Positions 2,314 through 60,245 of a DNA stretch of 64,000 nucleotides are shown in pieces. Made by a program: the position numbers and the translations under genes. Within the stretch, counting starts at the first letter, position 1. Every line of letters starts with the position of its first letter. The notes under the pieces were generated by a model. The model saw only the letters and a list, made by a program, of their open reading frames with translations. It was not told the origin of the DNA and did no database searches. Source of the stretch: Actinomycetales bacterium (GTDB lineage: Bacteria; Actinomycetota; Actinomycetes; Actinomycetales; Cellulomonadaceae); contig JAHLLI010000019.1 of the NCBI GenBank assembly GCA_020444245.1, positions 1 through 64,000 of the forward strand, given 5' to 3'.

Positions 2314-2367
2314 GCGGCGTCGGCTCACGCGGCTCCGCGATCCGACGCGCCCGGGTCGGAGGCGGGC

Positions 2368-7525: not shown

Positions 7526-7552
7526 GCCTCACCCCCTGCTTCCATCCTTCAC

Positions 7553-7586
7553 GACGAACGACGGGGGTCGGATCGTTGGGGGTCCG
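7553..7586 (-). promoter_or_regulatory. ECF-like promoter of sigma unit 1
   Basis: On the minus strand AACG (7574-7577) and CGTC (7553-7556) are 17 bases apart, resembling the AAC/CGTC boxes used by ECF sigma factors. The -35 side belongs to a 13-base block, CGGACCCCCAACG (7574-7586), repeated exactly in front of the second sigma gene. Confidence 0.5.
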
Positions 7587-7664
7587 GTGGACGGGCCGGA
7601 GCCACTGGGGTCCCGGTCGATCGGAGACCCGAGCCACCGGTGGCGCGCCGAACGGGCGGGGCGG

Positions 7665-9658: not shown

Positions 9659-9681
9659 GATCGCCCCCTCTCACCTGCTCA

Positions 9682-9714
9682 AACGATGCAGGCCGGCGAA
9701 CCGTTGGGGGTCCG
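9682..9714 (-). promoter_or_regulatory. ECF-like promoter of sigma unit 2
   Basis: On the minus strand AACG (9702-9705) and CGTT (9682-9685) are 16 bases apart. The -35 side is part of CGGACCCCCAACG (9702-9714), identical to the block upstream of sigma unit 1 and at nearly the same distance from the start codon (43 against 48 bases). Confidence 0.5.
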
Positions 9715-9756
9715 CGGTGCGCCCGGAACCCGCGTGGAGATCTTTGCGGACCGCGC

Positions 9757-11145
9757 TCAGTACGGCCAGGTACCGGGGTAGGCGTCCGGGCCGACGGCGA
9801 GGACCTGCGCCACCCAGAAGATCCCGGTGCTCGACCACGGGGCGACACCGGTCCCGGAGACGTTCTGCTGGACCTTCACGTAGAGCGCCCACACGCCGTC
9901 GGGGACGGTCGTCGACCCGTCGCACCAGGTGATCGGGAGGTCCATCGACAGCGGACCGTTCCAGGCGAACGGCGTGACCGGGCCGGCGAGCAGGCCGGCG
10001 ACCGGACCGGAGGAGAGCATCGGACCCGTGCCCCAGATCGCGTGGTCGCCCGGGGTCGCCGGAGCGACCACCGCGTCGAGGACGGTGATCTCCGAGCTCT
10101 CAGGTCCTGGCCAGGAGTCGGTGTCGGCCCACCACCCGGCCTCGGTCCTGAACCACAGCGTCGCCTGGCCCGAGGGCAGGGCGCGGTACCAGGTCGAGGT
10201 CTCGGCGACGTAGTGCGTGCCACCGGTGATCACGGGGTTCGCGCCGGCGATCGCGTCGAGCTGCGCGGTCGAGGACCCGCACCTGTCGAGGTCGAGCCGG
10301 TACTGCTCGGCGGGGATGTCGAGCTGCGGGGGCAGGCCGAGATCCTCCCCGACGGACGGTTGCTCCGGTGGCGCGCCGACGGTCACCAGCCACGCTCCCC
10401 GGTTGGTGAGCGGCGTGCCGTCGTGGACCATCCGGCCCTCGAACCACAGGGTGTACGAGCCCGCCGGTGGGCTCGACCCGGCGTCCGGCGTGCCGGGGCA
10501 CATCACGAACGGGATGTCCATGGCGAGGGGGGCGCTGGCGCCCGGCGCCCCCATCGTGCCGTCGATCAGGACCTGTGCCGACGGAGCGCGCAGCGGCGCC
10601 GCGGGGACCGCGATGACCGTCGACTCGGCACTCGTGCTGAGGTCGGCAGCGTTCGTGAGCACGGCTTCGAGGGGGGCGACGCTGACCCGGTCGCCGGCCC
10701 ACTGCTGGGACGTGCCGAAGGTCACCACGGTGTGCACGTCCTCGCCGGGCTCTGAGCTCGGCGCCCCGACGTCGGCCATGGTCAGGTCGGTGTCGTAGTC
10801 GTACATGGTCGGGCCGCGGGTGGTCCCGCACGCGCTCAGGTCCGGTTCGAAGGGGCTCTCCGTCGGCTCCGGCGCCGAGGTCGGCGTCGGGTCCGGCTCG
10901 CTCGTCGCGCTCTGGGTCGGCACGACCACTGGCGGCGCCGGGTCGGGGTGCAGGTCTCCGATCAGGGCGATGCCGCCGAACGTGAGCGCCGCCACCGTGG
11001 TGGCGCCGACCGCGCCCAGGGCCGTCGCGCGCGCGGCACGCCGGCGGTGGGCGCGCCGGAGCAGCTGCTCGATCGGGAACCTCGTCGCGCGGACCTCGGG
11101 GTCGGACCCGAGATCCCGCATCCCGCGGTGCAGGTCGTAGTCCAT
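9757..11145 (-). CDS. Single-pass membrane protein, putative sigma-factor partner (unit 3)
   Basis: A 462-residue protein with an N-terminal cytoplasmic part, a basic HRRRAARA segment, a transmembrane helix (about residues 40-62), a Thr/Pro/Glu-rich linker and a large extracellular region of repeated immunoglobulin-like or beta-rich texture with scattered cysteines. It starts one base after the stop of sigma gene 11147-11692. The architecture matches the other two partners, but the sequence has diverged and lacks the CGADASGL block. There is no recognised domain. The sigma partner role is inferred from the repeated gene order. Confidence 0.68.
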   Translation of the reverse strand: MDYDLHRGMRDLGSDPEVRATRFPIEQLLRRAHRRRAARATALGAVGATTVAALTFGGIALIGDLHPDPAPPVVVPTQSATSEPDPTPTSAPEPTESPFEPDLSACGTTRGPTMYDYDTDLTMADVGAPSSEPGEDVHTVVTFGTSQQWAGDRVSVAPLEAVLTNAADLSTSAESTVIAVPAAPLRAPSAQVLIDGTMGAPGASAPLAMDIPFVMCPGTPDAGSSPPAGSYTLWFEGRMVHDGTPLTNRGAWLVTVGAPPEQPSVGEDLGLPPQLDIPAEQYRLDLDRCGSSTAQLDAIAGANPVITGGTHYVAETSTWYRALPSGQATLWFRTEAGWWADTDSWPGPESSEITVLDAVVAPATPGDHAIWGTGPMLSSGPVAGLLAGPVTPFAWNGPLSMDLPITWCDGSTTVPDGVWALYVKVQQNVSGTGVAPWSSTGIFWVAQVLAVGPDAYPGTWPY

Positions 11146-49707: not shown

Positions 49708-49771
49708 TCAGCGCTCGCGCTCCGCGTCGCGGCTCGGTTGGACCCTCTTGGGCTCGCCCGGCATCTTCGGG
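49708..49771 (-). pseudogene. Displaced original 3' end of ligD
   Basis: Read on the minus strand in the ligD frame this gives the same MPGEPKRVQPSR as the current gene, then DAERER and a stop (49708-49710). It is the native ligD tail, separated from its gene by the integrated element; the intact gene (59163-60236) now ends with sequence supplied by the element. Confidence 0.85.
49728..49771. repeat. attL core, 44-bp direct repeat
   Basis: Identical over all 44 bases to 59195-59238, with mismatches on both sides (T against G before, G against T after). It starts CGCGGCTCGGTTGG and ends CATCTTCGGG. The repeat is the coding sequence for the C-terminus of LigD. Confidence 0.95.
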
Positions 49772-49784
49772 GTGCCGACCTCGT

Positions 49785-49848
49785 GAGCGCTGTGCTCACC
49801 TGCGGAAACGCTGGTCACGGTGGAGCGCTGTGGCGCCAGTTATCAGGA
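49785..49848. promoter_or_regulatory. Candidate integrase arm sites or operators, left end
   Basis: GAGCGCTGTG occurs twice (49785-49794, 49823-49832) and GTTATCAGGA once (49839-49848). The first copy lies in an inverted repeat GTGAGC-GCTGT-GCTCAC (49783-49799). Matching sequences occur at the right end (59119-59142). They also lie just upstream of the HTH gene and could be its operators. Confidence 0.45.
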
Positions 49849-49869
49849 GAGATCCGGGAGGAATCCACG

Positions 49870-50106
49870 ATGAGCACCACGACCACCGACGCGACGTACC
49901 GTCGCAGCACGTCCGCAGCCATCCTCGAGTACGTCACCAGGGACGGCCGCCCGGTCGCCCAGGTTGCCCGGGCCGCCGGCATGCTGCCGGACACGCTGCG
50001 GGCCAAGCTGCGCGGCCAGCGGCCGATCTACATCCCCGAGCTCCTGGCGCTGGCTCAGTCGTTCGGGATGAGCCCGAGCGCGTTCGCGCGAGAGGCGGGG
50101 TTGTGA
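49870..50106 (+). CDS. Small helix-turn-helix protein of the element
   Basis: A 78-residue protein with a Cro/CI-like helix-turn-helix (VAQVARAAGMLPDTLRAKLRG, key residues Q-A-x-x-A-G) in the middle. The ATG has GGGAGG. It is the first gene inside the left att and is transcribed opposite to the rest of the element, the usual place for a repressor or excision regulator. It is 4-base coupled to the zinc protein gene that follows. Confidence 0.65.
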   Translation: MSTTTTDATYRRSTSAAILEYVTRDGRPVAQVARAAGMLPDTLRAKLRGQRPIYIPELLALAQSFGMSPSAFAREAGL

Positions 50107-50606
50107 TGGCGGCGAGGCGAAGCGGCAACGTCCAGACGCAGCGGAAGGGCGGGCAGGCCCTGTGCTGCGAGTGCGGCAACCTCAAGGCGCTCCCCCGTCC
50201 TGCCCGTGCCTCGGGTGCCGAGCGCAACCTGCCGTGTGAGGTCTGCGGGCAAGAGACCAAGCACGCCACCGTGGTCGACGCCTCAGTCGCTGACTACCGG
50301 GAGCAGATGAACCAGAGGCGGACGCGGCTCAGCGTCCCCGATCAGATCGCCCTCCTGCGCTCGTGGGGCGTGGACGTCGAGGAGCGCGGCGCGGAGAACG
50401 ACAGCCGGGGACAGGCGCGCATTGCCGACGTGAGGTGGTTCTCCGACCCGGACCGGTTCGAGGTCACCACCTACAGCGGCGCGGAAGGGCTCGCTGAGAC
50501 GCTCGAGAAGATCGCGACGATGGTCACCGACCCGCGGGGATCGCGTTGGTTCATCGAGCGCGACGAGGGCGGCGAGACCTGCGGCGGCTGCTCCTGGGTC
50601 CGCTGA
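50106..50606 (+). CDS. Zinc-ribbon protein of unknown function
   Basis: A 166-residue protein with CCECGN (about 22), CEVCGQ (about 46), a helical middle (VPDQIALLRSWGVDVEE) and a C-terminal CGGCSW. Paired CxxC motifs suggest a structural zinc. The ATG overlaps the HTH stop by one base, so the two are co-translated, suggesting a common regulatory or excision task. No known family was recognised. Confidence 0.65.
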   Translation: MAARRSGNVQTQRKGGQALCCECGNLKALPRPARASGAERNLPCEVCGQETKHATVVDASVADYREQMNQRRTRLSVPDQIALLRSWGVDVEERGAENDSRGQARIADVRWFSDPDRFEVTTYSGAEGLAETLEKIATMVTDPRGSRWFIERDEGGETCGGCSWVR

Positions 50607-50618
50607 CACACGACGAAG

Positions 50619-50649
50619 CGCTGCCCCTGCCCAATGGGTGGGGGCAGCG
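50619..50649. terminator. Bidirectional terminator between convergent genes
   Basis: CGCTGCCCC (50619-50627) pairs perfectly with GGGGCAGCG (50641-50649), and four further bases inside extend the stem. It lies between the stops of the zinc protein (+) and the PASTA lipoprotein (-). Confidence 0.75.
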
Positions 50650-50683
50650 TCGAGTATCACGGCTCAGGGGAACAGGCTGGCGG

Positions 50684-51298
50684 TCACGACGCTCGCTCTG
50701 GGCATGCCCTCGCGAAGGCAGCATTCTTGTACGCGCGGATTGCATCGTCCTGCTCGACGGTCCGGTTGCGTCGCGTGGGCGAGTAGCCGAGCAGCGGTGC
50801 GATGGCGTCATTCAGCTCAAGGTTGGTCATCTCGGCGTCCGCGGCACACAGCCCTGTGTCGGTCGACAGATCGAAGCCCGCAGTGGGTGCGCTCACCGTC
50901 GGTGTGGGCGTCGGCGATGGCTGATCATCCGCGCCGACGAACACGGAGACGGCACGATTGGAGTGCACGTCGTCACCGGCCGTCGGGTAGGTCCGGATGA
51001 CAGGACGGGTCGCGGCGTCAGTGGCGGCTAGCTCGGCACCGTCGGACATCGCGATGAAGGTGACGGTCATTCCGGCGTCAGCTAGCTGCATCGCTGCGTC
51101 GGCGCCGAGCAGCCCAGCCAGGTCAGGTACGGCCGTCGGGCTCGTCGTGGGTGCCGAGGCCATGGCCGCCGGGGTCTGTGTCGGCGGCGGAGCCTCACTC
51201 GTGCTGCCGCATCCGGCCACCAGGGCGAGCGCCAGTAGCGCAGTGAGTCCCCGTGCCCGCTGGTCACCTGAGGATCCTGCCCCGGGGCGCCTGCGCAT
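50684..51298 (-). CDS. PASTA-like lipoprotein carried by the element
   Basis: A 204-residue protein with a signal peptide and lipobox LVAGC near residue 30, a Thr/Pro linker, a PASTA-like domain (VPDLAGLLGADAAMQLADAG ... IRTYPTAGDDV, about 58-115) and a C-terminal helical region with two cysteines (DTGLCAADAEM, AFARACP). The ATG at 51298 is preferred over a GTG six codons earlier. It is an export-competent gene in a mobile element, so it may be a cargo gene altering the cell surface, for example superinfection exclusion. Confidence 0.68.
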   Translation of the reverse strand: MRRRPGAGSSGDQRARGLTALLALALVAGCGSTSEAPPPTQTPAAMASAPTTSPTAVPDLAGLLGADAAMQLADAGMTVTFIAMSDGAELAATDAATRPVIRTYPTAGDDVHSNRAVSVFVGADDQPSPTPTPTVSAPTAGFDLSTDTGLCAADAEMTNLELNDAIAPLLGYSPTRRNRTVEQDDAIRAYKNAAFARACPERAS

Positions 51299-51430
51299 GT
51301 TGCCTGGTGTGAGCACGCTTCTCCCGTGTCGGGCGGCCGATCGGTGTCCGGTTGTCCTACGCCTAGCCTACGCGGGCCACGATCCCGGCGATGCGTCGGC
51401 GGGCGTCGGCGCATCACGCCGGAGTGCCGG

Positions 51431-51826
51431 TCACCGGGGCCGTTGCTCCTGACTTGCGTCCGGCACCAGGGTCAGAGCGCCCCTGGCGATCTGCTGGCGC
51501 ATCTCGTTGATCTGCCGTTGCGAATCGGACGCGGTCGAGGCCGGCCCGGGCTTGCGGTGCTCGGCCGGGGGGACGATCTGTAGCGCCTCGAGGTACTTCA
51601 GGAACGAGCCGAGCGAGATGTTGTCGTGCGCGGGGATCCTCGGCCGGGCGCCGGTCTGTGCGGCGTCATCCTGTGCCCACCTGACGATCACGTCCCAGGC
51701 GTCGATCTTGGCCGCGAGGGCGCGGGCTGCGGCCACAGCGGCTGCGTCGCGGGTCGTGAGGTGCGTAGCGGCCGCGATCGAGCCCTCAAGCGCCTCCGAG
51801 AGCGACCCCTCAGGCCTGGCCGTCAT
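51431..51826 (-). CDS. Probable small terminase subunit
   Basis: A 131-residue protein with helices LAAKIDAWDVIVRWAQDDA and a motif PAHDNISLGSFLKYLEALQIVPP that I recognise from actinophage small terminases. The ATG follows GGGAGG. It is the last minus-strand gene of the morphogenesis-like run and lies next to a 256-base noncoding stretch with three long stem-loops. No large terminase is in the element, so if the call is right it would redirect a helper phage's packaging motor. An alternative is an unrelated DNA-binding protein. Confidence 0.55.
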   Translation of the reverse strand: MTARPEGSLSEALEGSIAAATHLTTRDAAAVAAARALAAKIDAWDVIVRWAQDDAAQTGARPRIPAHDNISLGSFLKYLEALQIVPPAEHRKPGPASTASDSQRQINEMRQQIARGALTLVPDASQEQRPR

Positions 51827-51960
51827 CGCCCGGCTCCCTCCCCCCGGGTTCGTCCCTCGCGCGCGCGCGACCCTGTCGCGACCCAGGAGGGAGAGGACGC
51901 GCCCCCCGAAGGGTCGTCCCCCCGGAGCCCTCAGGCGACATTTTTCATGGGTGGCGGCAG

Positions 51961-52080
51961 CTCCGACGTTTCCACCCGTCGGAGCCGCCGCGTTGCCTGA
52001 GAGCGTCATGTGCTCGCCCGAGCCGCTCTCAGGCTGCGACGCCCGGCAACCAAGGGGAGGAGCCCCAACCGGGCGTCGCA
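51961..52080. other. Cluster of three long stem-loops upstream of the terminase-like gene
   Basis: Three perfect inverted repeats in a row: 51961-51968 with 51977-51984 (8 bp, loop 8); 51996-52005 with 52024-52033 (10 bp, the loop itself holding GCTCG/CGAGC); 52035-52046 with 52069-52080 (12 bp, the loop holding GGGG/CCCC). They fill the noncoding gap between the helical-protein gene and the terminase-like gene. They could be terminators for the late operon, a cos/pac-type packaging site or a replication origin. Confidence 0.65.
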
Positions 52081-52082
52081 GG

Positions 52083-52850
52083 TCATGAGGCCTTCGCCTG
52101 GCGCATGTCGGCGACCTCGCTGGGGGTGTTGAGCCGGAGCCCGCCCGCGGCCAGCGCGAACCAGTCGACACCGGCGTCGGTGCGGTGCTCGAGGTAGTGC
52201 GCACCGTCGTCGCTCCAGTTGCCGGCGGCGGCGAAGTACACGCTGAGGTCTGGTGGCTCGGGGCTGGCGGTGGCGGTCTCGACCTCGAAGGCCCGCAGCA
52301 GCCGTCTCAGAGCGGTGTGGTAGCGGTCCAGCTTGGCCCAGGCAGGTCGGGTGGCTCGCCATGCCGCTGAGGCGGCCTCGTCGGCGAAGTCGATCACGTC
52401 GTCGCTGGTGGTGCGCATCGTGAACCCGTACTCGCGGGCGGCGGTCACCAGCGCGGCGGCGGGCTTGTCGAACTCCTCGCGCTGTCCGGCGATGATGTCG
52501 TCGATCAGCGGCAGGCAGGCGGCCTGCACTTCGCTCACGAGCTGGGACTCGAAGGTGATGAGCCCGCTGTCCAGGCCCGCGCTCCGGCCCGTGTTGAAGC
52601 CGTCGGGCGCCTTGTGTCGGCGGATCGACCGCATCACGATGTCGTCCCGCACGTCGGCCTCGGCGAGCTCGAGGAGTGGGGTCGGCTTCTCGGCGACGAA
52701 CTCCGCGGCGATGGTGAGCAGCCGCTCTCCACGCACGAGCGGCTCGGGTGCGGGAGCGCCCAGCGCGTCGAGCGCCGCCCTCATCTCGGCGAGCCGGGCA
52801 CCGGTCGGTCCGGGGTGGAACGGGTTGGGGTTCCACTCAGGCGTCGTCAT
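52083..52850 (-). CDS. Helical protein of unknown function
   Basis: A 255-residue mostly helical protein, acidic, with no cysteine pair or enzymatic motif that I recognise. It ends in the first of the stem-loops. Its gene overlaps the 63-residue gene upstream by 14 bases. By position in the morphogenesis-like run it might be a particle or packaging component, but nothing in the sequence proves this. Confidence 0.6.
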   Translation of the reverse strand: MTTPEWNPNPFHPGPTGARLAEMRAALDALGAPAPEPLVRGERLLTIAAEFVAEKPTPLLELAEADVRDDIVMRSIRRHKAPDGFNTGRSAGLDSGLITFESQLVSEVQAACLPLIDDIIAGQREEFDKPAAALVTAAREYGFTMRTTSDDVIDFADEAASAAWRATRPAWAKLDRYHTALRRLLRAFEVETATASPEPPDLSVYFAAAGNWSDDGAHYLEHRTDAGVDWFALAAGGLRLNTPSEVADMRQAKAS

Positions 52851-53028
52851 CGGGAGCCTCCTTGATCAGGCCGAGTGTGAGCAGGTGTTCGATCTGCCCG
52901 CGGCGGGTGCCGGTGGGCAGCGGCTGGCCCCGGTAGACGTGCTCCTGCCCGCCGGTGGCACCCACGGCGACCACGCACTTCGCGGTGACGACGTAGCGGG
53001 CCCGTGTGCCGAAGACGTAGTGGTCCAT
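52837..53028 (-). CDS. Small 63-residue protein
   Basis: MDHYVFGTRARYVVTAKCVV is the start; a beta-rich N-terminal half is followed by a helix (GQIEHLLTLGLIKEA) ending in an acidic tail. Genes like this often sit between capsid decoration and tail-joining genes in actinophages. The function is unknown. Confidence 0.5.
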   Translation of the reverse strand: MDHYVFGTRARYVVTAKCVVAVGATGGQEHVYRGQPLPTGTRRGQIEHLLTLGLIKEAPDDDA

Positions 53029-53045
53029 GCCCTCTCGCCTCCGGA

Positions 53046-53405
53046 TCAGATGTAGAGGACGTCGACGACGTCCAGGTCGGCGGCGGTGGTGAGGGCGATC
53101 CCGATGGGCTTCGTCCCGGCGCCGATGGTGGCGACCTTCCCGGCGATCGCGGTGATGACCCGGTCACCGGCGGCGATCGCACCGGCGGCGATGAGCGGGT
53201 GTACCCCGTTGCCGCGGAGGAAGACCGTGACGTCCTCGCCGATCGCGGCGTCGAAGCCAGCGGTGCCGATCGCGAGCTCGTCGTCGCCCGCCGGGCCCAC
53301 GGTGCGGTCGCCGGTCACGACGACCTCACGGCCGCCCGTCACTGCGGCGGACGCGGAGAACGTCACGGCCTGGCCGGGCTTGAACTTGGGCAGGTAGTCG
53401 GCCAT
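53046..53405 (-). CDS. DUF2190-like capsid decoration protein
   Basis: A 119-residue protein starting FKPGQAVTFSASAAVTGG with repeats of short beta strands (RTVGPAGDDELAIGTAGFDAAIGEDVTVF, IAAGDRVITAIAGKVATIGAGT). This is the pattern of DUF2190/lambda gpD-like capsid decoration proteins of actinophages. The start at 53405 is taken because an ATG four codons earlier would overlap the next gene more. It is followed by small head-associated-looking genes. Its presence without a major capsid gene suggests decoration of a helper's capsid. Confidence 0.65.
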   Translation of the reverse strand: MADYLPKFKPGQAVTFSASAAVTGGREVVVTGDRTVGPAGDDELAIGTAGFDAAIGEDVTVFLRGNGVHPLIAAGAIAAGDRVITAIAGKVATIGAGTKPIGIALTTAADLDVVDVLYI

Positions 53406-53689
53406 CAGTCGGTCCACCCGGCCCGGGCCATCAGCTCGTCCGCGGTGGCTAGCGGGGCATGCGCGCGCTCAGGCGGCGGCTCGTCCCATCCGGCCTTGGC
53501 CACGAGCGTCCGCTCGGCGGTGCTCAGGCTCGTGCTCGTGCCGCCCTTGACCCTTGCGGCGGCACGGTCGAGCAGGCGACCGTAGGCGGCCCGGGTCATC
53601 GGGTAGTCCCGACCCCGGTGCCTGACGACGACCCGCTGGGCGCTCTCGGCGTGCTCGCTGCGCTCGGCCTGGGTGGGGTGCTGCGTCAT
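53405..53689 (-). CDS. Small phage-like protein, 94 residues
   Basis: A charged, helical protein (HRGRDYPMTRAAYGRLLDRA) whose stop overlaps the next start by one base and whose start overlaps the upstream stop by four. It lies in the run with the decoration protein. I do not recognise a family; its content resembles small proteins in actinophage head clusters. Confidence 0.5.
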   Translation of the reverse strand: MTQHPTQAERSEHAESAQRVVVRHRGRDYPMTRAAYGRLLDRAAARVKGGTSTSLSTAERTLVAKAGWDEPPPERAHAPLATADELMARAGWTD

Positions 53690-54066
53690 GACTCCTCCTG
53701 CGGATGTGAGATAGCGCGCGGGCCGCTGGCCTGGTGCGCGTCCTCCGCTGGAGGTGACGTGCTCGGATCGGACGCCGCTGGCGCTTCCCTATCCGGCTCT
53801 CCGAGACTACCGCGTGAGGCCGACAGGTGGGGTTTGCGACGCACCAGATCCTCGACCTGGAGCTCGAACTCGCGGAAGTCGAGCCGCCCCTCAGCGGTGG
53901 TGACCGCGTCCATGCCGATGAAGGCGTGGAAGTCGTCCGGGTCGGCCAGTCTGCCGTCGAGCAGCACCCGCACCGCGAACGTGTTCAGCTCGGCGATGTA
54001 GGACTCGGCACGACGCAGCTGGGCCCGGTATCTCGCCGCCTCGCGTGAGGCCCGCAGTGCGCTCAT
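53686..54066 (-). CDS. Phage-like helical protein, scaffold-type pattern
   Basis: A 126-residue protein with an N-terminal helix and the motif LADPDDFHAFIGMDAVTTAEGRLD followed by VEDLVRRKPHL. This pattern is common in short hypothetical proteins next to capsid genes of actinobacterial prophages. The C-terminus is a disordered, proline/serine-rich tail. It overlaps both neighbours by four bases. The link to assembly is inferred from that resemblance. Confidence 0.55.
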   Translation of the reverse strand: MSALRASREAARYRAQLRRAESYIAELNTFAVRVLLDGRLADPDDFHAFIGMDAVTTAEGRLDFREFELQVEDLVRRKPHLSASRGSLGEPDREAPAASDPSTSPPAEDAHQASGPRAISHPQEES

Positions 54067-54791
54067 CGGTGACGGGACGGAGAGGAGGGGCGGTGAGGTC
54101 TGCGGCGTGATGGGCTCAGCAGGTCACCACGGACGTCCACGGGCGCGACGTCGGCCAGGTACTCCGGCGCGATCACGTGGGCGGGCAGGGCGGTGTGCAG
54201 GTCCGTGTAGGAGCACAGGAGCGCGTCACCGGGCACGCGCGCGACCCACGTCGGGCCGTAGCGCGAGGCGAGCAGCAGGGACGGTGTCCACGTGAGCCCG
54301 TCGCGGCGATCCGGGGTGGCGCCGCGGTAGAGCGTCAGGAAGCCGCGAGGACGCGCTGCGGGCTGGGCCTCGTTGAGGTAGGGGTGCTCCCTGAACCGAT
54401 CTGCCCACCAGGTGCGATCTGCGTGCGTGTCCTTGGCCATGAGCTGCCGGTGGGGTGGGTGCAGTACCCACATCAGACCCGGAACGTTGGCATGGGCCAC
54501 CTCGACGTCGGTCTCGAAGCGCCGGGCGAGGTACGTCACGTACTGGTGCGCGATCCGGTAGATCGGCTCGTCCGCGCCGGCGTGGCGCTTCCAGATCTCG
54601 GCTGGCGCCTGTCGCTGGAACGTCGCCACGGCCAGGTGGAGCGCGAGCATGGCGACGTTGCGAGGTTCCCCCTCCTGGCGCGTGGGTGCGGGCCGCACGG
54701 CGGGCGGTAGCGCGGCCGACACCCTCGCGAGGGCGTCGGACACCTCGAGCAGCGCATCGCGGGCGGCCTCATCGGCGGGCGTCAGGCTCAT
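54063..54791 (-). CDS. Protein with ADP-ribosyltransferase-like motif pattern
   Basis: A 242-residue protein. The middle contains LTLYRGATPD, then GLTWTPSLLLASRYG and WVARVPGDALLCSY, spacing reminiscent of the R ... S-T-S ... E layout of small phage ART-fold proteins. The catalytic glutamate is not obvious, since the motif after the barrel reads HVIAPEYLADV. The ATG at 54791 is used. It overlaps the genes on both sides by four bases. It may be a modifier of host or helper proteins; the assignment is weak. Confidence 0.45.
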   Translation of the reverse strand: MSLTPADEAARDALLEVSDALARVSAALPPAVRPAPTRQEGEPRNVAMLALHLAVATFQRQAPAEIWKRHAGADEPIYRIAHQYVTYLARRFETDVEVAHANVPGLMWVLHPPHRQLMAKDTHADRTWWADRFREHPYLNEAQPAARPRGFLTLYRGATPDRRDGLTWTPSLLLASRYGPTWVARVPGDALLCSYTDLHTALPAHVIAPEYLADVAPVDVRGDLLSPSRRRPHRPSSPSRHR

Positions 54792-54946
54792 CGGGTCTCC
54801 TCCTGCTCGGTCTTGCGCAGCTCGACAGCGCCGCATCCGAGGCAGCGCGCGATGGCGATTCCGTGCACGGCACGGGAGTGCTCGACGGTCCAGCCCGGCC
54901 GTTGGCAGCCCGGGCGGTGGACGCTCGTGGTGGTCTGGGTGGTCAC
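54788..54946 (-). CDS. Small zinc-knuckle protein, 52 residues
   Basis: A GTG-started protein with cysteines at C14, C38 and C41 (HRPGCQRPGW ... CLGCG) and a short, charged tail, overlapping the WhiB stop by four bases. Too short for a firm family call; such small zinc proteins are usual in actinophage early regions. Confidence 0.5.
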   Translation of the reverse strand: MTTQTTTSVHRPGCQRPGWTVEHSRAVHGIAIARCLGCGAVELRKTEQEETR

Positions 54947-55233
54947 GCTGCTGTCTCCTTGGTCTCTGCGGCCTTGCGCCGCTCGTGCTCGGTCATGGCG
55001 CCGTAGACGCCGGCCTCCTTGGGCCACGCGAGCCCGTAGGCCTGGCACGCGATGACACCAGCGCATCCGACGCACAACCGCGCTGCGAGATCCTGGGCCT
55101 CGTGGTCGTCGGACGTCCAGATGCCGCGCTCAGGCACCGGGACCTCACGGCAGGGCACCCGGGCGCCGTTGTCGGCCAGCTGCTCGAGGTAGGCCAACAA
55201 CTCGGCGCGGGCCTCGTGGCGGTCGGCGGTCAT
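54943..55233 (-). CDS. WhiB-family Fe-S transcriptional regulator
   Basis: A 96-residue protein with the four WhiB cysteines C28, C54, C57 and C63 (spacing x25, x2, x5) and the following GVYGAMTEHERR in place of the usual G[VI]WGG loop. The ATG is at 55233. WhiB proteins bind a 4Fe-4S cluster and contact the main sigma factor. In phages such copies shut down or divert host transcription, so here it is probably the element's switch to control host or helper genes. Confidence 0.82.
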   Translation of the reverse strand: MTADRHEARAELLAYLEQLADNGARVPCREVPVPERGIWTSDDHEAQDLAARLCVGCAGVIACQAYGLAWPKEAGVYGAMTEHERRKAAETKETAA

Positions 55234-55463
55234 GACGTCGCCTCGCACGTCGGATGGCGCGGATAGGTCACCTTGTCGATGGGCCAGCCGCAGAGCTCGC
55301 ACTTGAACGCGAGGTTCGGCCAGAGGTGAAACTCCTGGTCAGAGACCCGCTTCGGCTTCCGAGTGGCGCGAGTGGCGCGACTTCTGTATCTCTTCTCACC
55401 CGGCCGCGCGTAGGGCGAACCTGGAACTACGCCACTTGCGCCACTTGTGGGTCGGCTCACCAT
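55230..55463 (-). CDS. Small zinc-binding-type protein, 77 residues
   Basis: A basic protein with a C-terminal CELCGW...HPTC zinc-like motif and an arginine/lysine-rich middle. The ATG overlaps the primase gene stop by seven bases and its stop overlaps the WhiB start by four. It is probably a DNA- or RNA-binding accessory of the replication module. Confidence 0.55.
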   Translation of the reverse strand: MVSRPTSGASGVVPGSPYARPGEKRYRSRATRATRKPKRVSDQEFHLWPNLAFKCELCGWPIDKVTYPRHPTCEATS

Positions 55464-56884
55464 GACGACCCCACTTCGTCGTTGTCGTCGGCCGCGAGTC
55501 CTATGCCCTTGCGGACGCGCAGGCCACCCGTGCTCTTTGTGGCCGGATAGCCGCGCCCGTCGATCGCCTCGCCGAACGCGCGCTTGTTGAGCGGGTCGGT
55601 GCCGTCCTCGGCGGCCCAGCGGGTCCAGCGGTCGAACAGCTCAGCGACCGTCACACGCATGTTCGGGTTGATCAGGCAGCACTCGGCGAGGAACCGTCCG
55701 ATGGCGTCGGAGTCGGCCTGGTAGCGCTCGGTGGCCTTGACCACGGCTGAGGGCTCAGCGAGTCCGTTGGCGTGGTAGTCGGCCCACCCTGCGATGGCCC
55801 ACGACAGGATGGCGTCGGCCTCGAGCTCGAGCTTCTCGCCCAGGTGGGTGTCCTGCTCGGCCTTGGGGATCACGACGTCGAACGGCACGACGCGCAACCG
55901 TGCCCACAGCGCCGGGTCGTCGCCGGAGACCCGCGGAAGGTGGTTGGTGACCAGGGCCGGGGTGTGCGACGGGGCGAACTCGACGAAGTCCTGTCGCATG
56001 CGCCGGGCCCGGATGCGATCCCCGCCGGTCAGTCTCTTGACGGTGGCTTCGGCGAGACGGCGTCCTTGGTCGGACTCGGAGACCACGACCCACCGGATGC
56101 CGCGAAGGTCCATCTCACCGGTGGGGTGTGCGCCCTCGCGGGCCATGAACAGGTCGGGCTCAGCGGTCGAGGCGTAGTCCCCCAGGGCCGCGGCCACGGC
56201 ACGGTCGAACACGCCCTTGCCGTTGCGGCCGGTCCCGGTCAGGATCGCCAGGACGTGCTCAAGGACGCGCCCAGCAAGGCCCACGCCCACGTAGCGGCCC
56301 AGGAAGGCGCGCACAGCCTCGTCCGGCAGCACACGGGCCAGGAACGCGTCCCAGGTCGGCCCTGCGGCGTCGGGGTCGTAGGCGGCGCCGGTCACCTTCG
56401 TGATCCGGTCGGCTGGGTCGTGCGGCCGCAGGACCATCGTTTGCAGGTCGAGCGTCCCGTTCGCGCAGTTGAGCAGGTACGCGTCGGCGTCCAGGTCGTC
56501 CACGGTTGCCGCGAACGGCTCGAGGGCAGCTGCGAGCTCGAGGACACCGGCCACACCTGCGGCGGACTCGCACTTGCGCACGTCGGCCCGCAGGTCGCGG
56601 TCGTCCAGCGACTCAGCCAGAGCGGATCTCAGCTCGGCGAGCACTGCGCGCGTGGCCTCCCCGCGGTCGTCCTCGCGCCAGCGGCGGCCATCCCAGACGA
56701 ACCACCCGATGCCGTGAACGAACATCAGCCGGTGACCGTGGCTCGCCGCGAGCCGGTAGGCCATCCGTGCCTGCCCATGGTGGACGCTGGCCGGGGCATC
56801 GCCCCACGGACACCCGCACTCGGTCCGGGCCAGGGTGTGCGCGTCGCACCACTCGGCGGTGTCGTTGACGAAGTCGGCGCTCAC
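55457..56884 (-). CDS. P4-type primase/helicase (D5-like)
   Basis: A 475-residue protein starting at GTG 56884. The N-terminal part matches the D5_N domain (LMFVHGIGWFVWDGRRW, LLNCANGTLDL), then a superfamily 3 helicase with Walker A GTGRNGKG (217-224), Walker B VVVSESD and a C-terminal winged domain. Family members unwind and start replication of P4-like satellites and plasmids. The toprim part of full-length P4 alpha protein is missing, so it depends on a host or helper primase or lacks primase activity. It is the replication gene of the element. Confidence 0.88.
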   Translation of the reverse strand: MSADFVNDTAEWCDAHTLARTECGCPWGDAPASVHHGQARMAYRLAASHGHRLMFVHGIGWFVWDGRRWREDDRGEATRAVLAELRSALAESLDDRDLRADVRKCESAAGVAGVLELAAALEPFAATVDDLDADAYLLNCANGTLDLQTMVLRPHDPADRITKVTGAAYDPDAAGPTWDAFLARVLPDEAVRAFLGRYVGVGLAGRVLEHVLAILTGTGRNGKGVFDRAVAAALGDYASTAEPDLFMAREGAHPTGEMDLRGIRWVVVSESDQGRRLAEATVKRLTGGDRIRARRMRQDFVEFAPSHTPALVTNHLPRVSGDDPALWARLRVVPFDVVIPKAEQDTHLGEKLELEADAILSWAIAGWADYHANGLAEPSAVVKATERYQADSDAIGRFLAECCLINPNMRVTVAELFDRWTRWAAEDGTDPLNKRAFGEAIDGRGYPATKSTGGLRVRKGIGLAADDNDEVGSSW

Positions 56885-57174
56885 GGGCTCACCGCCTCGC
56901 GGGAGAAGCGCTTGGCCAGCTCCCACGCGGCCCATCCCTCGGCCTTGCGCCGGCGGACCTCGGCGACGAACTCCGACCAGGTCAAGCCGTAGGTGGTCGG
57001 CAGGGTCCGGTAGATGGCGGGATCGGGATAGAGCTCGCGGAGATCGGGCGGGAGCGTCGCTACCCTGCGGCCACCGGTCGGCCGTACCGTGGAAGCGATC
57101 CGGGTCGTCACCTGATCTGCTGAGTCGGGCGCTCCTGCGGGGGGGCGCCCTTCTCGCTGTCTGGGGTCGCTCAC
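56881..57174 (-). CDS. Small element protein, 97 residues
   Basis: A protein with a disordered first half and a helical C-terminal half (LTWSEFVAEVRRRKAEGWAAWELAKRFSREA). The stop overlaps the primase start by four bases. Its position directly before the primase suggests a replication accessory; the family is unknown. Confidence 0.5.
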   Translation of the reverse strand: MSDPRQREGRPPAGAPDSADQVTTRIASTVRPTGGRRVATLPPDLRELYPDPAIYRTLPTTYGLTWSEFVAEVRRRKAEGWAAWELAKRFSREAVSP

Positions 57175-57488
57175 GCGGCACCCCCGGAGAGGCGTCGCAG
57201 CTCGGCGTCAGCGGCCTCGCTCTCAGCCGCGAGCGCCTTGGACTTCCGTCGTGCGCGGGCGGACTTGAGCGCGAGGCGCTGGAAGTGTGCCTTGCGGGCG
57301 TGCTCCGCGCGCCGCGCGCGTTCGTCGGGCGACAGGATGCCGTCCGGGTCGACCTGGCGCTCGAACGTCGCCATGAGGGCGGCCCGAGCGGGTGCGGTGC
57401 GGGCGGATCGGTCGGGGGTGAGTGCCCAGGACGTGTGGGCGGCGATCTGCGCTGAGAGGCGACGTTCATTCGACGTCGGTGCGGGCAT
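57171..57488 (-). CDS. Small helical element protein, 105 residues
   Basis: An alanine- and arginine-rich coiled-coil-like protein with HTSWALTPDRSARTAPARAA near its start, a motif seen in many actinophage early proteins of unknown role. The ATG is at 57488 and the stop overlaps the next gene by four bases. It may be an accessory to the primase or a DNA-binding protein. Confidence 0.55.
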   Translation of the reverse strand: MPAPTSNERRLSAQIAAHTSWALTPDRSARTAPARAALMATFERQVDPDGILSPDERARRAEHARKAHFQRLALKSARARRKSKALAAESEAADAELRRLSGGAA

Positions 57489-57580
57489 GCGGACGGACCT
57501 CCGTGGTCAGTCCGGTTGCTCACTCCGGTGTCGAGACGCGGTTCCTCGACATCTGGCGCTAGGCGCTCAAGCGTTCTGCG

Positions 57581-58102
57581 TTAACGGTATCGCACACCGC
57601 CTGTCCCATCGTGACGCATGATGACGACGGCGTGTCGGCCACCGCCATCTGCCACGACATTCAGGAGCGCTGCGTAGGGGAGGTCGTACTGGTGCCCCCG
57701 GCGACACGTTGCCCGGTCGCCCCACGCGACCATCGGGGTCGCTGCGGCCGGAGGATCCGCGAACGAACGTCGACCTCCGGAGTCGCTCTGCCTCACCCAG
57801 AGGACCGGTCGCCCGCTGCTGATCGTCACGTGCGCGATGGTCTCGCCTCGGCAATCTCCGCAGAGGACGCGGACCCAGGCACCACCCTTCGGCGGGCCGA
57901 CTATGCCGCGACTCAGGAGGGCCTTCCCCAGGTTCTCCGCGGTGGTGATGTCGGCTGCCACCTGCTGTGCCGCGTCCATCTGCGGGTGGAACCGCAGCCG
58001 GAACTCGGCGACCTCCTCATCGCTCAGCTCGCGTTCGAGGCGAAGCGTCGGGCCAGACGCGAAGAGGGCCTCGAGTTGCTCCGGCGTCAGGGGATCAGGC
58101 AT
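57581..58102 (-). CDS. Zinc-ribbon protein, 173 residues
   Basis: A helical N-terminal region (SDEEVAEFRLRFHP), then a beta-rich half with CGDCRGE and CRRGHQYD, a zinc ribbon. It overlaps the integrase relic by 16 bases in another frame and ends 92 bases before the next gene. No family recognised; it is likely part of the element's early module. Confidence 0.55.
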   Translation of the reverse strand: MPDPLTPEQLEALFASGPTLRLERELSDEEVAEFRLRFHPQMDAAQQVAADITTAENLGKALLSRGIVGPPKGGAWVRVLCGDCRGETIAHVTISSGRPVLWVRQSDSGGRRSFADPPAAATPMVAWGDRATCRRGHQYDLPYAALLNVVADGGGRHAVVIMRHDGTGGVRYR

Positions 58103-58212
58103 CGCAGGTCCCCCAGGTTGAGCTCGCGCGCCTCGGCCGCTGGGCGCTCCGACGTCCGAGCACGGGTGTAGCGCATGAGCATGTCGGGCTGGGACCAGCC
58201 GGCCACGGCCAT
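58087..58212 (-). pseudogene. C-terminal relic of a second tyrosine integrase
   Basis: A 41-codon frame beginning with ATG reads GWSQPDMLMRYTRARTSER, then EARELNLGDL to a stop. This is the end of a tyrosine recombinase: the GW before the last catalytic region, the nucleophile tyrosine in MRYTRA, and the LNLGDL terminus. It differs from the resident integrase (GWSSDTMLERYG) and has no N-terminal part, so it is the leftover of a former integrase gene. Confidence 0.75.
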
Positions 58213-58213
58213 G

Positions 58214-59110
58214 TCAGACCCGGTCCCCCCGTCGCATCCGTTCGGCCGCCGCCCGGGCCCTCGCGTCGGCCGCGCTCGCGCCGTAGCGCTCGAGCATCGT
58301 GTCGGAGGACCACCCGGCCAGGCGCTTGAGGTCGCGCTCCTGGCCGCCGGCCATGAGGAAGTCGTGGGCGAAGGTGTGCCGGAAGCGGTGCGGGTGCAGG
58401 TCCGTGATCCCCGCGGCCTCGCCGCGCTTGCGGATGACGTCGCGCACGCCGTCGGTGGTCATGGCACCGCGCTGGGACAGGAACAGGGCGTCGAGGTGCG
58501 ACCACCGGGACGTGGCGCGCACGCGCACGTAGCGGTCGAGCGCCTGGGCGGTGCGGGCGCCGAAGTACACCGGGCGGACCTTGTCGCCTTTGCCGCGCAC
58601 CAGGAGCATCCCGGCATCCAGGTCCTTCGCTGTCATCGCGGATAGGCCGCACAGCTCGGACACGCGCACCCCGCAGTCGAGCAGCACCCGGATGATCGCC
58701 ATGTCGCGACGGTCGGCGAAGTCCTTGCCTGCACAGACCTTGACCAGCGCGGCGAGCTCGGCGTCGGTGAGCACCGGCACCGGGCGGTCCTTGGTCCGGG
58801 GCAGGTCGACGCCGGTCATCGGGTTGGTGGGTATCTCGTCCTCGGCCACGAGCCAGCCGCAGAACCGGTGCAGGCCGCGGTAGCGGGTGCGCACGGTGGT
58901 CGCCTCGTGGGTGTCGTTGAGGTCGGCGAGCCAGTCGACGATCTCGCGGCGGCTCAGATGGTCGGCCGTGGCGGGCTTGCCGTGGTCCTCGAGCCAGCGG
59001 GCATAGAACTCCACGCTCTGGCCGTACAGCCGCAGCGTCGCGGGGGACTTGCGCTCGGCGCGCAGGTAGCGGGCGAAGGATGCGCCCAGGTCGCGAAGGT
59101 CTGTCGGCAC
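58214..59110 (-). CDS. int: Tyrosine recombinase (integrase) of the element
   Basis: A 298-residue tyrosine recombinase with a SAM-like core-binding domain (1-105) and the catalytic set R149 (GVRVSEL), K174, H241-x-x-R244 (HRFRHTFAH), W267 and nucleophile Y276 (ERYG). The GTG at 59110 lies six bases after TAACCT on the minus strand (59117-59122), so it may be leaderless. It sits 84 bases from the right att core, as in genomic islands. It is expected to recombine the 44-bp att cores. Confidence 0.93.
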   Translation of the reverse strand: MPTDLRDLGASFARYLRAERKSPATLRLYGQSVEFYARWLEDHGKPATADHLSRREIVDWLADLNDTHEATTVRTRYRGLHRFCGWLVAEDEIPTNPMTGVDLPRTKDRPVPVLTDAELAALVKVCAGKDFADRRDMAIIRVLLDCGVRVSELCGLSAMTAKDLDAGMLLVRGKGDKVRPVYFGARTAQALDRYVRVRATSRWSHLDALFLSQRGAMTTDGVRDVIRKRGEAAGITDLHPHRFRHTFAHDFLMAGGQERDLKRLAGWSSDTMLERYGASAADARARAAAERMRRGDRV

Positions 59111-59116
59111 GGGGCT

Positions 59117-59142
59117 AGGTTATCAGGACAGCAAGCGCTATG
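59117..59142. promoter_or_regulatory. Integrase promoter box and arm-type repeat, right end
   Basis: GTTATCAGGA (59119-59128) and AAGCGCTATG (59133-59142) repeat the motifs of the left end. The minus-strand TAACCT (59117-59122) six bases before the integrase start overlaps the first, so binding there could both assemble the recombination complex and repress int. Confidence 0.45.
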
Positions 59143-59162
59143 CTACGAAGCGCCACGGCACG

Positions 59163-60236
59163 TTAGTCGGTGTTTTCGCTGGTAGATGGCCTAGCGCGGC
59201 TCGGTTGGACCCTCTTGGGCTCGCCCGGCATCTTCGGGTACTCCGGCGGGTAGGGCAGGTCGCCCAGGCCGTGGTCGCGCTCGTCGCGGTCGGCGAGCTC
59301 GAGCAGCGGCCGCAGGGAGTAGCGCGGGCCGGCGCCCGCCTCGAGCGGGGCGAACAGGTCGCCGTGCTCGGCCAGCCGCGCCGGCACGGTGGCCGGGGTG
59401 AAGTCGTCAGGGGCCACGTCGTCGAGCTCGTCCCAGCGCAGCGGTGTGGACACCGTGCCGCGGGCGTTCGCCCGGATCGAGTACGCCGAGGCGATCGTGC
59501 GGTCCCTGGCCATCTGGTTGTAGTCCACGAAGATCGTCTGCCCGCGCTCCTCCTTCCACCAGCGCGTGGTCACCTGGCCGGGCAGGCGCCGCTCGAGCTC
59601 GCGGCCGAACGCGATCGTCGCGCGCCTGGCCTGGGTGAAGGTCCAGCGAGGCTCGATGGGCACGAACACGTGCAGGCCGCGCCCGCCGGAGGTCTTGGGC
59701 CAGCAATCCAGGCCCAGCTCGTGCAGCAGCTCGCGGGCGTGCGGGGCGACCCGGACGGCATCGGAGAAGTCGGTGCCGGGTTGGGGGTCCAGGTCGATCC
59801 GCAGCTGGTCGGGCGCCTCGGTGTCGGCGGCGGTCACCGGCCACGGATGGAACGTCAGGGTGCCCAGGTTCGCGGCCCACGCGACGACGGCGAGCTCGGT
59901 CGGGCAGATCTCGTCGGCGAACCGGCCGCTGGGGAACGCGATGCGTGCCGTGCTCACCCAGTCCGGCGCCCCGCGTGGCACCCGCTTCTGGTAGAAGCCG
60001 TCGCCCGAGGAGTCCACCCGGGTGGACAGCCGTGCCCCGTCGAACCAGCCCTTGGGCCAGCGCTCCAGCGTCGTGGGGCGCTCGCGCAGCGCGCCGAGGA
60101 TCCCGTCGCCGACCGCGACGAAGTACTCCACGACGTCGAGCTTGGTCAGCCCGAGTCCCGGGAGCACGACCCGGTCCGGGCTGGACACGCGCACGGTCCG
60201 GCCGCGCACGTCCAGCTCCACCGCCGGCGCTGCCAT
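59163..60236 (-). CDS. ligD: LigD polymerase-domain protein, C-terminus replaced by the element
   Basis: A 357-residue polymerase/primase of the LigD (non-homologous end joining) type with the metal motif RIDLDPQPG, HVFVPIEP and TIASAYSIRA. The ATG at 60236 is preceded by an in-frame GTG two codons earlier. No ligase or nuclease domain is attached, as in many actinobacterial stand-alone LigD-Pol proteins. The last codons after PSR are new: the element provides ARPSTSENTD before the stop, in place of the original DAERER. Confidence 0.9.
   Translation of the reverse strand: MAAPAVELDVRGRTVRVSSPDRVVLPGLGLTKLDVVEYFVAVGDGILGALRERPTTLERWPKGWFDGARLSTRVDSSGDGFYQKRVPRGAPDWVSTARIAFPSGRFADEICPTELAVVAWAANLGTLTFHPWPVTAADTEAPDQLRIDLDPQPGTDFSDAVRVAPHARELLHELGLDCWPKTSGGRGLHVFVPIEPRWTFTQARRATIAFGRELERRLPGQVTTRWWKEERGQTIFVDYNQMARDRTIASAYSIRANARGTVSTPLRWDELDDVAPDDFTPATVPARLAEHGDLFAPLEAGAGPRYSLRPLLELADRDERDHGLGDLPYPPEYPKMPGEPKRVQPSRARPSTSENTD
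59195..59238. repeat. attR core, 44-bp direct repeat
   Basis: Identical to 49728-49771. It lies within the coding sequence of ligD, covering KMPGEPKRVQPSR on the minus strand, so recombination there keeps the reading frame. Confidence 0.95.
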
Positions 60237-60245
60237 GGGCACACG

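Follow-up and report, generated by a model that had tools for sequence, protein, structure and literature searches.

A probable actinophage satellite in ligD that may redirect helper capsids through copies of a phage protease tail

What is the 9,467-bp segment that occupies the end of ligD in a bacterium of the Cellulomonadaceae, and how would it move between cells? The window analyzed here is the whole 64,000-nucleotide stretch of contig JAHLLI010000019.1 (assembly GCA_020444245.1, positions 1 to 64,000). An earlier note on its letters had read the segment, bounded by a perfect 44-bp repeat, as a satellite of an actinophage with an integrase, a P4/D5-type helicase, a WhiB protein, a DUF2190-like protein and a small terminase, and with no large terminase, portal, capsid, tail or lysis genes. 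Our analysis supports that proposal: the element shares a capsid-less gene cassette with other elements, contains DNA resembling a phage packaging site, encodes a small terminase subunit (TerS) whose relatives lie beside large terminase (TerL) genes, and carries a tail peptide and a cement protein that match phage counterparts. We conclude that the element is almost certainly a satellite. It is likely an integrated satellite of an actinophage that would seize helper capsids by the cycle proposed below. The features are collected in Table 1.

The 9,467-bp length is the spacing of the two copies of the 44-bp direct repeat, which occurs at only these two places in the 4.41-Mb own genome even with up to three mismatches allowed. 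When the flanks are joined in silico, an uninterrupted 355-aa ligD with a different last stretch is obtained. The segment, its repeat and its location in ligD are as the earlier note described them. A ligD match is present in 18 of the 19 genomes of the genus searched, own included. Phage-inducible chromosomal islands (PICIs) are described as using a specific attachment (att) site that prophages do not occupy. The att sequence of this element is the 44-bp repeat in ligD, and 16 of the 17 other ligD-matching genomes show no match to an element protein in the stretch read beside the gene (835–1,480 bases past the stop), and one has a related integrase there. The two flanks were seen near each other only in G006 (L097), where one neighboring gene is also missing. 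In the remaining genome, G004, an integrase and a g16 homologue, 69% and 75% identical to those of the element, adjoin ligD (L195, contig C341, positions 1516–3546); the contig is only 3,546 bases long and ends there. Searches of G004 with TerS, the D5 helicase and g9 gave no match, so the locus may belong to another element that has this type of integrase. A related integrase beside ligD in a second genome therefore makes ligD a recurrent site for this integrase type.

The gene content of the element agrees with the families that had been named. Matches above curated cut-offs are seen for TerS, the DUF2190/cement protein, WhiB, D5_N, the integrase, the PASTA domain of g3 and TIGR01613, and the D5/P4 helicase g14 provides the replication gene that PICIs also possess. 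The open reading frames (ORFs) are tightly packed, and the sole broken gene noticed is a 41-aa integrase remnant, absent from the earlier note. This remnant lies directly downstream of the intact integrase and is probably the scar of an integrase exchange. Hidden TerL, portal and capsid genes were also sought, and none was found. A tblastn search of the full window with 22 reference phage proteins (TerL, portal, protease and major capsid protein, MCP) returned no match below E 0.04. A search of the own genome with the capsid family PF05065 gave no match, and one with phrog_2, which we take to be the large terminase family, gave a single marginal match (E 0.0025) to a 1,057-aa frame on another contig that is probably not a terminase. 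PHROG and Pfam scans of the element ORFs returned no tail family, and the lysis-labeled matches were weak spanin matches of g3 only (best E 3e-4). As in PICIs, structural and lytic genes are missing, the exceptions in kind being g7, the scaffold-like g8 and g9, and g6.

The cassette g9-g8-g6-g5 recurs in four elements from two bacterial families, in which the integrases, cargo and sites differ; the search for the same gene set in other genomes thus yielded three further elements, one of them incomplete. The second element, L023, was reached through a g5 homologue (33% identical, E 5e-18) in a genome of another family. Besides g9, g6 and g5 it carries an integrase, a gene resembling replication initiators and a g8-like protein. 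At its ends lie two copies of a 19-bp repeat that differ at one position; they are spaced 10,797 bp and fall within a gene recognized by reading as a TadA/CpaF-like ATPase. L087 and L088 were found in 220 own-family genomes with a hidden Markov model (HMM) of g9. L087 matches g9 (84%), g8 (51%), g6 (87%) and g5 (77%) up to the contig end. L088 matches g9 (57%), g6 (36%) and g5 (43%), its g8 being recognized by position and tail only. Its boundaries are two identical copies of a 27-bp repeat at tRNA-Arg, 10,022 bp apart. The bounded elements thus measure 9.5 (window), 10.0 (L088) and ∼10.8 kb (L023), as against ∼15 kb for PICIs. A set of 24 reference proteins for TerL, portal, protease and MCP had no match at E 0.01 in L088, L023 or the read part of L087; g7 and g4 were likewise seen without a match there.

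Genes unique to such elements are a further PICI feature, and g5 has been seen in these four elements only. It is unmatched among 50,697 phage records and 72,556 plasmids, and no relative was confirmed in pattern scans of IMG/VR viral contigs or, with a two-row g5 alignment, of genome contigs; such scans depend on a short conserved pattern and can overlook relatives. The g5 gene occurs in 2 of 396 genomes of the order and 1 of 394 of the class (own in both counts), and in 2 of 81 of the genus with the handle g3. The idea that g5 is a divergent capsid protein is not supported, as a two-sequence structure model is all-alpha with long hairpin helices and a predicted local distance difference test score (pLDDT) of 55.5. 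For g9, used singly and as two alignments, the IMG/VR pattern scans confirmed no relative; the phage records searched with g9 and g10 gave no result. At E 0.01, g9 matches 15 of the 220 own-family genomes. Three of these (own, G082 and G025) are of the satellite type, and four of the other twelve were read (L089–L092).

These relatives also bear on whether the element is a dead satellite, formerly mobile and now immobile. TerS, D5 and g9 are unmatched in the 18 other same-genus genomes searched, the integrase scar is present, and a helper was not recognized in the own genome, all of which would fit an immobile remnant. A resident helper is unnecessary, however, and the integrase, helicase, TerS and g5–g9 are open frames between identical att copies. 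The high identity of g9 and g6 in another genus (L087), together with the integrase and g16 beside ligD in G004, suggests recent movement, and we regard a dead element as rather improbable.

TerS ties the element to phages. Its relatives are found in Min1, in Propionibacterium B3, E1 and Anatole, in three IMG/VR contigs, in an own-family prophage (L008) and in 13 genome contigs. A TerL gene lies downstream of TerS in all 19 relatives inspected, namely, the 13 genome loci, L005–L008, Min1 and B3 (in B3 after an HNH gene; E1 and Anatole were left out). This TerL is annotated in Min1 and B3, and the other 17 match those two at 30–84% over at least 470 residues. Pfam is weak on these proteins, with 20.1 for L008 (cut-off 23.7) and nothing for L005–L007; the L008 portal (PF06074, 199 bits) and the L005 MCP (PF25209, 60 bits) are clear. 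A TerS match in the L090 prophage (34%, E 8e-4, inside another frame) was weak and not counted. The terminase-like protein, for which the earlier note had allowed that no phage relation might be found, is phage-related.

Could the element then be a degraded prophage, in which internal deletions left the integrase, the replication genes, TerS and the cement gene by chance? TerS and cement are indeed near full-phage versions (63% to L008 TerS; 80–83% to the L116, L117 and L123 cement proteins), and cement and g6 flank the MCP gene in phages, which resembles MCP loss from a head operon. The inspected relatives of TerS and cement are also placed in full phages, prophages or phage contigs; the earlier note had considered it a sign against a satellite if all homologues lay in complete prophages; g5, with no phage match, departs from this. 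The gene order argues otherwise. Min1-like phages have TerS, TerL, portal, ClpP-type protease, a ∼120-aa DUF2190 gene, MCP and a small gene, whereas the element has g9, g8, g7 (DUF2190), g6, g5, the packaging site and TerS, an arrangement that deletions within the phage order would not produce since phages place TerS ahead of cement. No TerS-TerL-portal-MCP block collinear with phages is present, as would be expected of a complete or degraded prophage. In addition, the g9-g8-g6-g5 cassette is found again at different sites and with different integrases, the ORFs are closely packed, and a sister element (L088) retains the packaging site without a TerS match. On the basis of gene order, sister elements and the missing TerL, portal and MCP, we reject a degraded prophage as highly improbable.

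The candidate packaging site lies in the noncoding stretch between g5 and TerS. This stretch aligns with DNA upstream of terS in phages, both in L008 and in L005, where identity is 84.5% across 58 bp (E 1e-8); in all, ∼90 bp upstream of the window TerS match such phage DNA. The block recurrent in phages consists of CCTCTCxCCCC, a spacer and GGGGGTCGCGCG. It forms bases 4–43 of the linear B3 record, which suggests that it is a cos end, assuming that B3 is cos-type and that the record start is its physical end. A cos-like matrix was built from five phages, whose own scores are 30.1–36.0 by construction. Among the 13 genome prophage loci, nine score above 24, one scores 20.7 and three fall below 15; L007 scores 11.9, its contig beginning 55 bp before TerS. 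In L088, which lacks a g4 match, the block scores 34.2 and lies 180 bp past g5. In the window, the site scores 23.3 and the best score elsewhere is 13.9. Pairwise alignment of the window site gives 69 (L005), 61 (L008), 36 (Min1) and 69 (L088), each reached by 0 of 500 shuffles, and 96 other window pieces score at most 37 (L008) and 30 (L005). The L088 site aligns at 101 (L008), 67 (L005), 53 (Min1) and 46 (L050), again with 0 of 500 shuffles each. Strong stacked hairpins at 51950–52082, between g5 and the packaging site, may be terminators or part of the site. PICIs carry either TerS or helper cos/pac, according to the accessible text of PMC6092414; this element has both a PF23931 TerS and the shared upstream block as a candidate cos. 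No other single argument for helper packaging is as strong as this site, common to phages, a TerS-bearing element and an element lacking a TerS match, and the element very likely uses the packaging site of its helper.

The next question is how an element without a capsid gene would obtain a shell, and here g8 is informative. L008-type proteases combine a ClpP domain with a region that matches Mu-like protease I, and in Mu the protease I region doubles as a scaffold. Among 80 relatives that the L008 protease has in IMG/VR, the C-termini of 76 were read (four loci were without a complete tail); we assembled a set of 85 tails, 72 from IMG/VR and 13 from reference phages, after dropping L185, L187, L192 and L193 as non-protease-like or weakest. 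By best ungapped BLOSUM62 score, the window g8 reaches 55 (ATADELMARAGWTD vs STGDQLAAKAGWTD), L087 g8 reaches 46, L088 g8 reaches 52 (ASSEDAIYRAIYGEP vs ASADDALYGSIYGTP) and the L023 g8-like protein reaches 73 (ARDDDAEYLALFPDERP vs ASGDDAEYYALFPDERP). Among 1000 shuffles, 0, 5, 0 and 0, respectively, attain these values. Each protein also contains a second, nonoverlapping copy, scoring 47 (window), 41 (L087), 46 (L088) and 70 (L023); for the window, L088 and L023 this value is attained by 2, 1 and 0 shuffles. The 52 control proteins of up to 300 aa from the four elements score at most 40. In each element one tail copy ends 0–2 residues from the C-terminus, and different elements match the tails of different phage subtypes. 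One mark of a CpmB-type protein is small size combined with a C-terminus like the capsid-binding end of the helper scaffold; the g8 tail matches protease tails, whose binding to capsid is assumed.

The neighboring g9, as judged from its HMM matches and their gene positions, is homologous to phage scaffolding proteins over their C-terminal domain. In a second family, 11 of 378 genomes match the g9 HMM, and besides L023 six of the other ten were read (the five best and G271). In L044–L047, the g9-matched gene (180–234 aa) directly precedes the capsid gene and follows TerL- and portal-size genes. The capsid genes of L044 and L047 are Pfam-confirmed and the L046 capsid is 31% identical to that of L047; for L043, an AT-rich locus, the gene caller gave a single gene. 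Own-family loci L089–L092 likewise have the match just before MCP (E 2e-7 to 3e-3). The shared block reads approximately GxLxDxxD..F...DGx.D....L..L..xPxL. A structure model of g9 has a pLDDT of 78.5 and is confident over residues 1–80. The fold search in BFVD gave no significant match; nine of the 50 rows listed, out of 56, are named scaffolding protein. A PDB fold search gave nothing relevant (best E 0.71, a mitoribosome chain). A transposase-like gene (named by reading) splits the TerL region of the G1287 prophage at L045 13565–14809 (+).

The cement gene g7 can be compared with the tail. It matches a gene that immediately follows the protease gene at 70 of the 76 loci, and its six best matches, 72–83% identical, all come from phages with AGW-type tails. 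The mean is 133 bits over 13 AGW loci versus 71 over the 57 others (Mann–Whitney p 1.6e-6, a statistic that ignores shared descent). The best g7 matches all being AGW-tail phages, cement and tail, as sequences, point to one helper subtype. Ten loci have a g6 match (E 5e-6 to 9e-4) ∼1.3–1.5 kb beyond the stop codon of the protease gene, in the position that follows MCP. The name of g7 is itself in conflict, Pfam calling the family cement/decoration and PHROGs head scaffolding; we use the Pfam name. In loci L048 and L064–L071, eight of nine phage records call the ∼120-aa DUF2190-type gene scaffolding and phi16 calls it hypothetical, and one of the two labels is probably wrong.

These observations suggest the following cycle. 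Upon induction, the integrase would excise the element at the 44-bp att in ligD, and the D5 helicase would replicate it. Helper TerL, with the satellite or helper TerS, would cut and package the element at the cos-like site near terS. The two protease-scaffold tail peptides of g8, together with g9, would bind the helper capsid protein in competition with the helper scaffold, an action that we model on CpmB in SaPI1; g5, g6 and g7 would assist, and helper capsid protein would be diverted to shells suited to ∼10 kb, at the expense of the helper. That g8 and g9 bind the helper capsid protein is somewhat probable; on small capsids we are evenly divided. The predicted helper is a phage with TerS, TerL, portal, ClpP-type protease, DUF2190 and MCP in this order, similar to L008 and L114–L123. 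We reason with equal weight for and against that the four elements form one capsid-less actinobacterial satellite family that seizes helper heads by peptide mimicry, each keeping the tail version of its own helper (AGW, IYG or LFPDERP). The helper protease-scaffold tail is here presumed to hold the capsid protein, with the tail protein beside a second scaffold-domain protein, and at least two elements would have a helper packaging site.

A satellite could also act without capsid resizing, with g8, g9 and g7 sabotaging helper assembly and several copies being packaged together in normal heads. Phage-inducible chromosomal minimalist islands (PICMIs) package concatemers. They are reported without capsid-remodeling genes in the accessible text of PMC10803314, the cos-like site here permits packaging without small heads, and the small head size is a prediction. 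On the other hand, scaffold-like proteins kept in four elements and a tail-concordant cement protein fit remodeling better than sabotage alone, and the three bounded elements are of 9.5 to ∼10.8 kb. We therefore consider sabotage unlikely and prefer the capsid-hijack cycle.

Several results weigh against this cycle or its parts. With respect to the tails, the second copy in L087 is reached by 25 of 1000 shuffles with the 85-tail set, and g8 is missed by an HMM made from the final 85 residues of 13 proteases, the short tail alone matching. With the 13 reference tails by themselves, g8 rises above background against just two, L008 (0 of 300 shuffles) and L006 (2 of 300). A 10-tail matrix gives 7.9 for the window and 5.4 for L087 when the best of 116 controls is 8.6, although it separates L088 and L023 clearly. 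That matrix left out Doggs, Sahara and phi16, which gave no alignment by eye, and two other tails were shifted by hand; it includes one AGW-type tail, compared with 13 of 76 in the larger set. Foldseek similarity of g9 to scaffolds is weak (best E 0.25, BFVD). With respect to the packaging site, the window block scores 23.3, just above the best of 100 shuffles (21.2) and below the five phages, and its alignment to L050 upstream DNA (29, 6 of 500 shuffles) is not significant; no cos-like block is seen in L023, L042 or the read part of L087. Finally, the phrog_2 and PF05065 searches recognized no helper prophage in the own genome, which is why the helper type is taken from relatives.

Table 1. 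Positions of the element, its genes and its host gene in the window
Feature	Coordinates	Strand	Evidence or remark
att copy, g1/g2 end	49728..49771	.	44-bp perfect repeat; left flank runs into original ligD 3' end
g1, helix-turn-helix regulator, divergent operon	49870..50106	+	phrog_4583 E 1e-5
g2, protein with Cys pairs, divergent operon	50109..50606	+	translation
g3, PASTA-domain lipoprotein (cargo)	50684..51316	-	PF03793 28.9 bits, cut-off 23.2
g4, small terminase subunit (TerS)	51431..51826	-	PF23931 37.4 bits, cut-off 27; 45–63% to six phage/prophage relatives
candidate packaging (cos-like) site	51855..51947	-	common to DNA upstream of phage terS
g5, so far in these elements only	52083..52850	-	all-alpha model, low confidence
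g6, homologue of small protein encoded just downstream of phage MCP	52837..53028	-	
g7, DUF2190 protein	53046..53405	-	PF09956 41 bits, cut-off 24; phrog_673 E 4e-21; 80–83% to L116/L117/L123
g8, scaffold-tail protein, two copies of phage protease C-terminal peptide	53405..53689	-	
g8 C-terminal tail copy, residues 81–94	53408..53449	-	score 55 to L118 tail, 0/1000 shuffles
g8 internal tail copy, aligned residues 52–76, core 57–69	53462..53536	-	second-copy score 47, 2/1000 shuffles
g9, homologue of phage scaffolding-protein C-terminal domain	53686..54066	-	phrog_4708 E 2e-4; HMM matches; gene position in prophages
g10	54063..54791	-	upstream of g9
g11, small protein	54788..54946	-	translation
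g12, WhiB-like regulator	54943..55233	-	PF02467 34 bits
g13, small protein with Cys pairs	55230..55463	-	translation; no family
g14, D5/P4-family replicative helicase	55457..56884	-	PF08706 (D5_N) 132 bits; TIGR01613 314 bits, cut-off 108.7
g15	56881..57174	-	no family named
g16, phage protein of unknown function	57171..57488	-	phrog_2842 E 1e-9; 75% relative in G004
g17	57581..58102	-	no family at E 0.1
41-aa remnant, C-terminus of second tyrosine integrase	58090..58212	-	integrase of Streptomyces phage Kromp, 64% identity across 36 aa, E 3e-6
tyrosine integrase	58214..59110	-	PF00589 93 bits; 69% relative adjoins ligD in G004
att copy within ligD 3' end	59195..59238	.	44-bp perfect repeat
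host ligD primase-polymerase gene	59163..60242	-	PF21686 296 bits; element now supplies last codons

The remaining genes vary among the elements. The slot of g10 is taken in L088 by a pectate-lyase-fold, tail-spike-like gene (9470–10990; PF12708, 63.8 bits) and in L087 by a gene with a weak tail-fiber match; such slot genes could alter the surface bound by the particle. A guess from the letters that g10 is an ADP-ribosyltransferase was unsupported by Pfam, PHROGs, NCBIfam, phage tblastn and PDB sequences. In L023, a PsyrTA/ShosTA-like defense pair follows g5 (7447–9182, minus strand; PsyrA E 4e-48, PsyrT E 9e-8). Of eight element proteins scanned with PADLOC, g3 alone matched (PD-T4-6, E 8e-6). 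A lipoprotein gene among the head-tail genes of the L005 prophage contig (16957–17598, minus strand) is 35% identical to g3 over 49 aa. An Rfam scan gave no RNA family. L088 contains a cluster of GC-rich 25–40-bp direct repeats (8757–8906), possibly a replication origin or regulator site, and three D5 helicase matches of equal score and length on G159 contig C1 (L020–L022) are perhaps three copies of one element. A capsid-bearing element, L042 (6209–15366), has a g9-like scaffold together with an MCP (PF05065, 96 bits), no TerL apart from a 26-residue match at E 0.009, and a 47-nt, 91% repeat at tRNA-Lys. It is a possible link between capsid-bearing and capsid-less satellites.

A short C-terminal peptide that is legible in satellite and phage alike, and can be matched between them, would let helper specificity be predicted from sequence; on the mimicry proposal the tail would predict the phage that each satellite parasitizes. 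To our knowledge, few capsid redirectors have been described (CpmB; Ccm, Rcm and a PLE protein; Sid). Actinobacteria, rich in sequenced phages, would gain a satellite class that is invisible to a definition by capsid gene. With a PsyrTA/ShosTA-like pair in one sister element (L023) and a tail-spike-like gene in another (L088), this class may spread phage defense and surface-binding genes. Our literature search, whose coverage excluded most subscription papers, found no capsid-less actinobacterial satellite with duplicated scaffold tails.

How does the element compare with known satellites? The phiRv elements are ∼10 kb. In the accessible portion of PMC10654092, Mycobacterium candidate PICIs are defined by an integrase and a capsid gene. 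The earlier note had called such satellites poorly described in actinobacteria, which calls for a qualification: PICIs of Mycobacterium and Actinomycetota have been published, the mycobacterial ones being defined by a capsid gene that is absent here (PMC10654092). Like these and phiRv1/phiRv2, some of which have terminase and scaffold genes, the element is actinobacterial and integrase-bearing (PMC10654092). Unlike them, no MCP was found in the window element, L023 or L088 (L087 is cut), nor did MCP searches match elsewhere in the window or the own genome; L042 is of the capsid-bearing kind. MulchRoom and MiniFlayer of Streptomyces, also actinophage satellites, show the reverse division of labor, as they encode their own TerL, portal and capsid and are described, in the part of PMC10690885 available, as being without key replication genes. 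The element shares with P4 a P4-family helicase (TIGR01613). P4 uses a capsid size-determining scaffold (PMC7552001, in part), whereas scans of the element gave no Sid or Psu family, and it has scaffold-tail copies and an actinophage-shared site instead.

A further close likeness is to SaPI1 and the PICIs, which also combine an integrase and own att, a replication gene, and TerS and/or phage cos with no TerL, portal or capsid (PMC6092414, accessible text). SaPI1 CpmB and the 80alpha scaffold have a common C-terminal RIIK motif in their last 16 residues and compete for the capsid protein (PMC5644958, likewise in part). Unlike CpmB, the element copies the tail of a maturation protease with a scaffold-like region, and does so twice per protein; it also has g9, a scaffold-domain protein in its own right, together with a DUF2190 gene and g5. 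No SaPI-specific family emerged when the element was scanned with PHROG, Pfam and NCBIfam, and the elements are ∼9.5–10.8 kb rather than ∼15 kb. Taken together, the sequence comparisons predict a phage satellite that works like a cos-type PICI, in a new variant.

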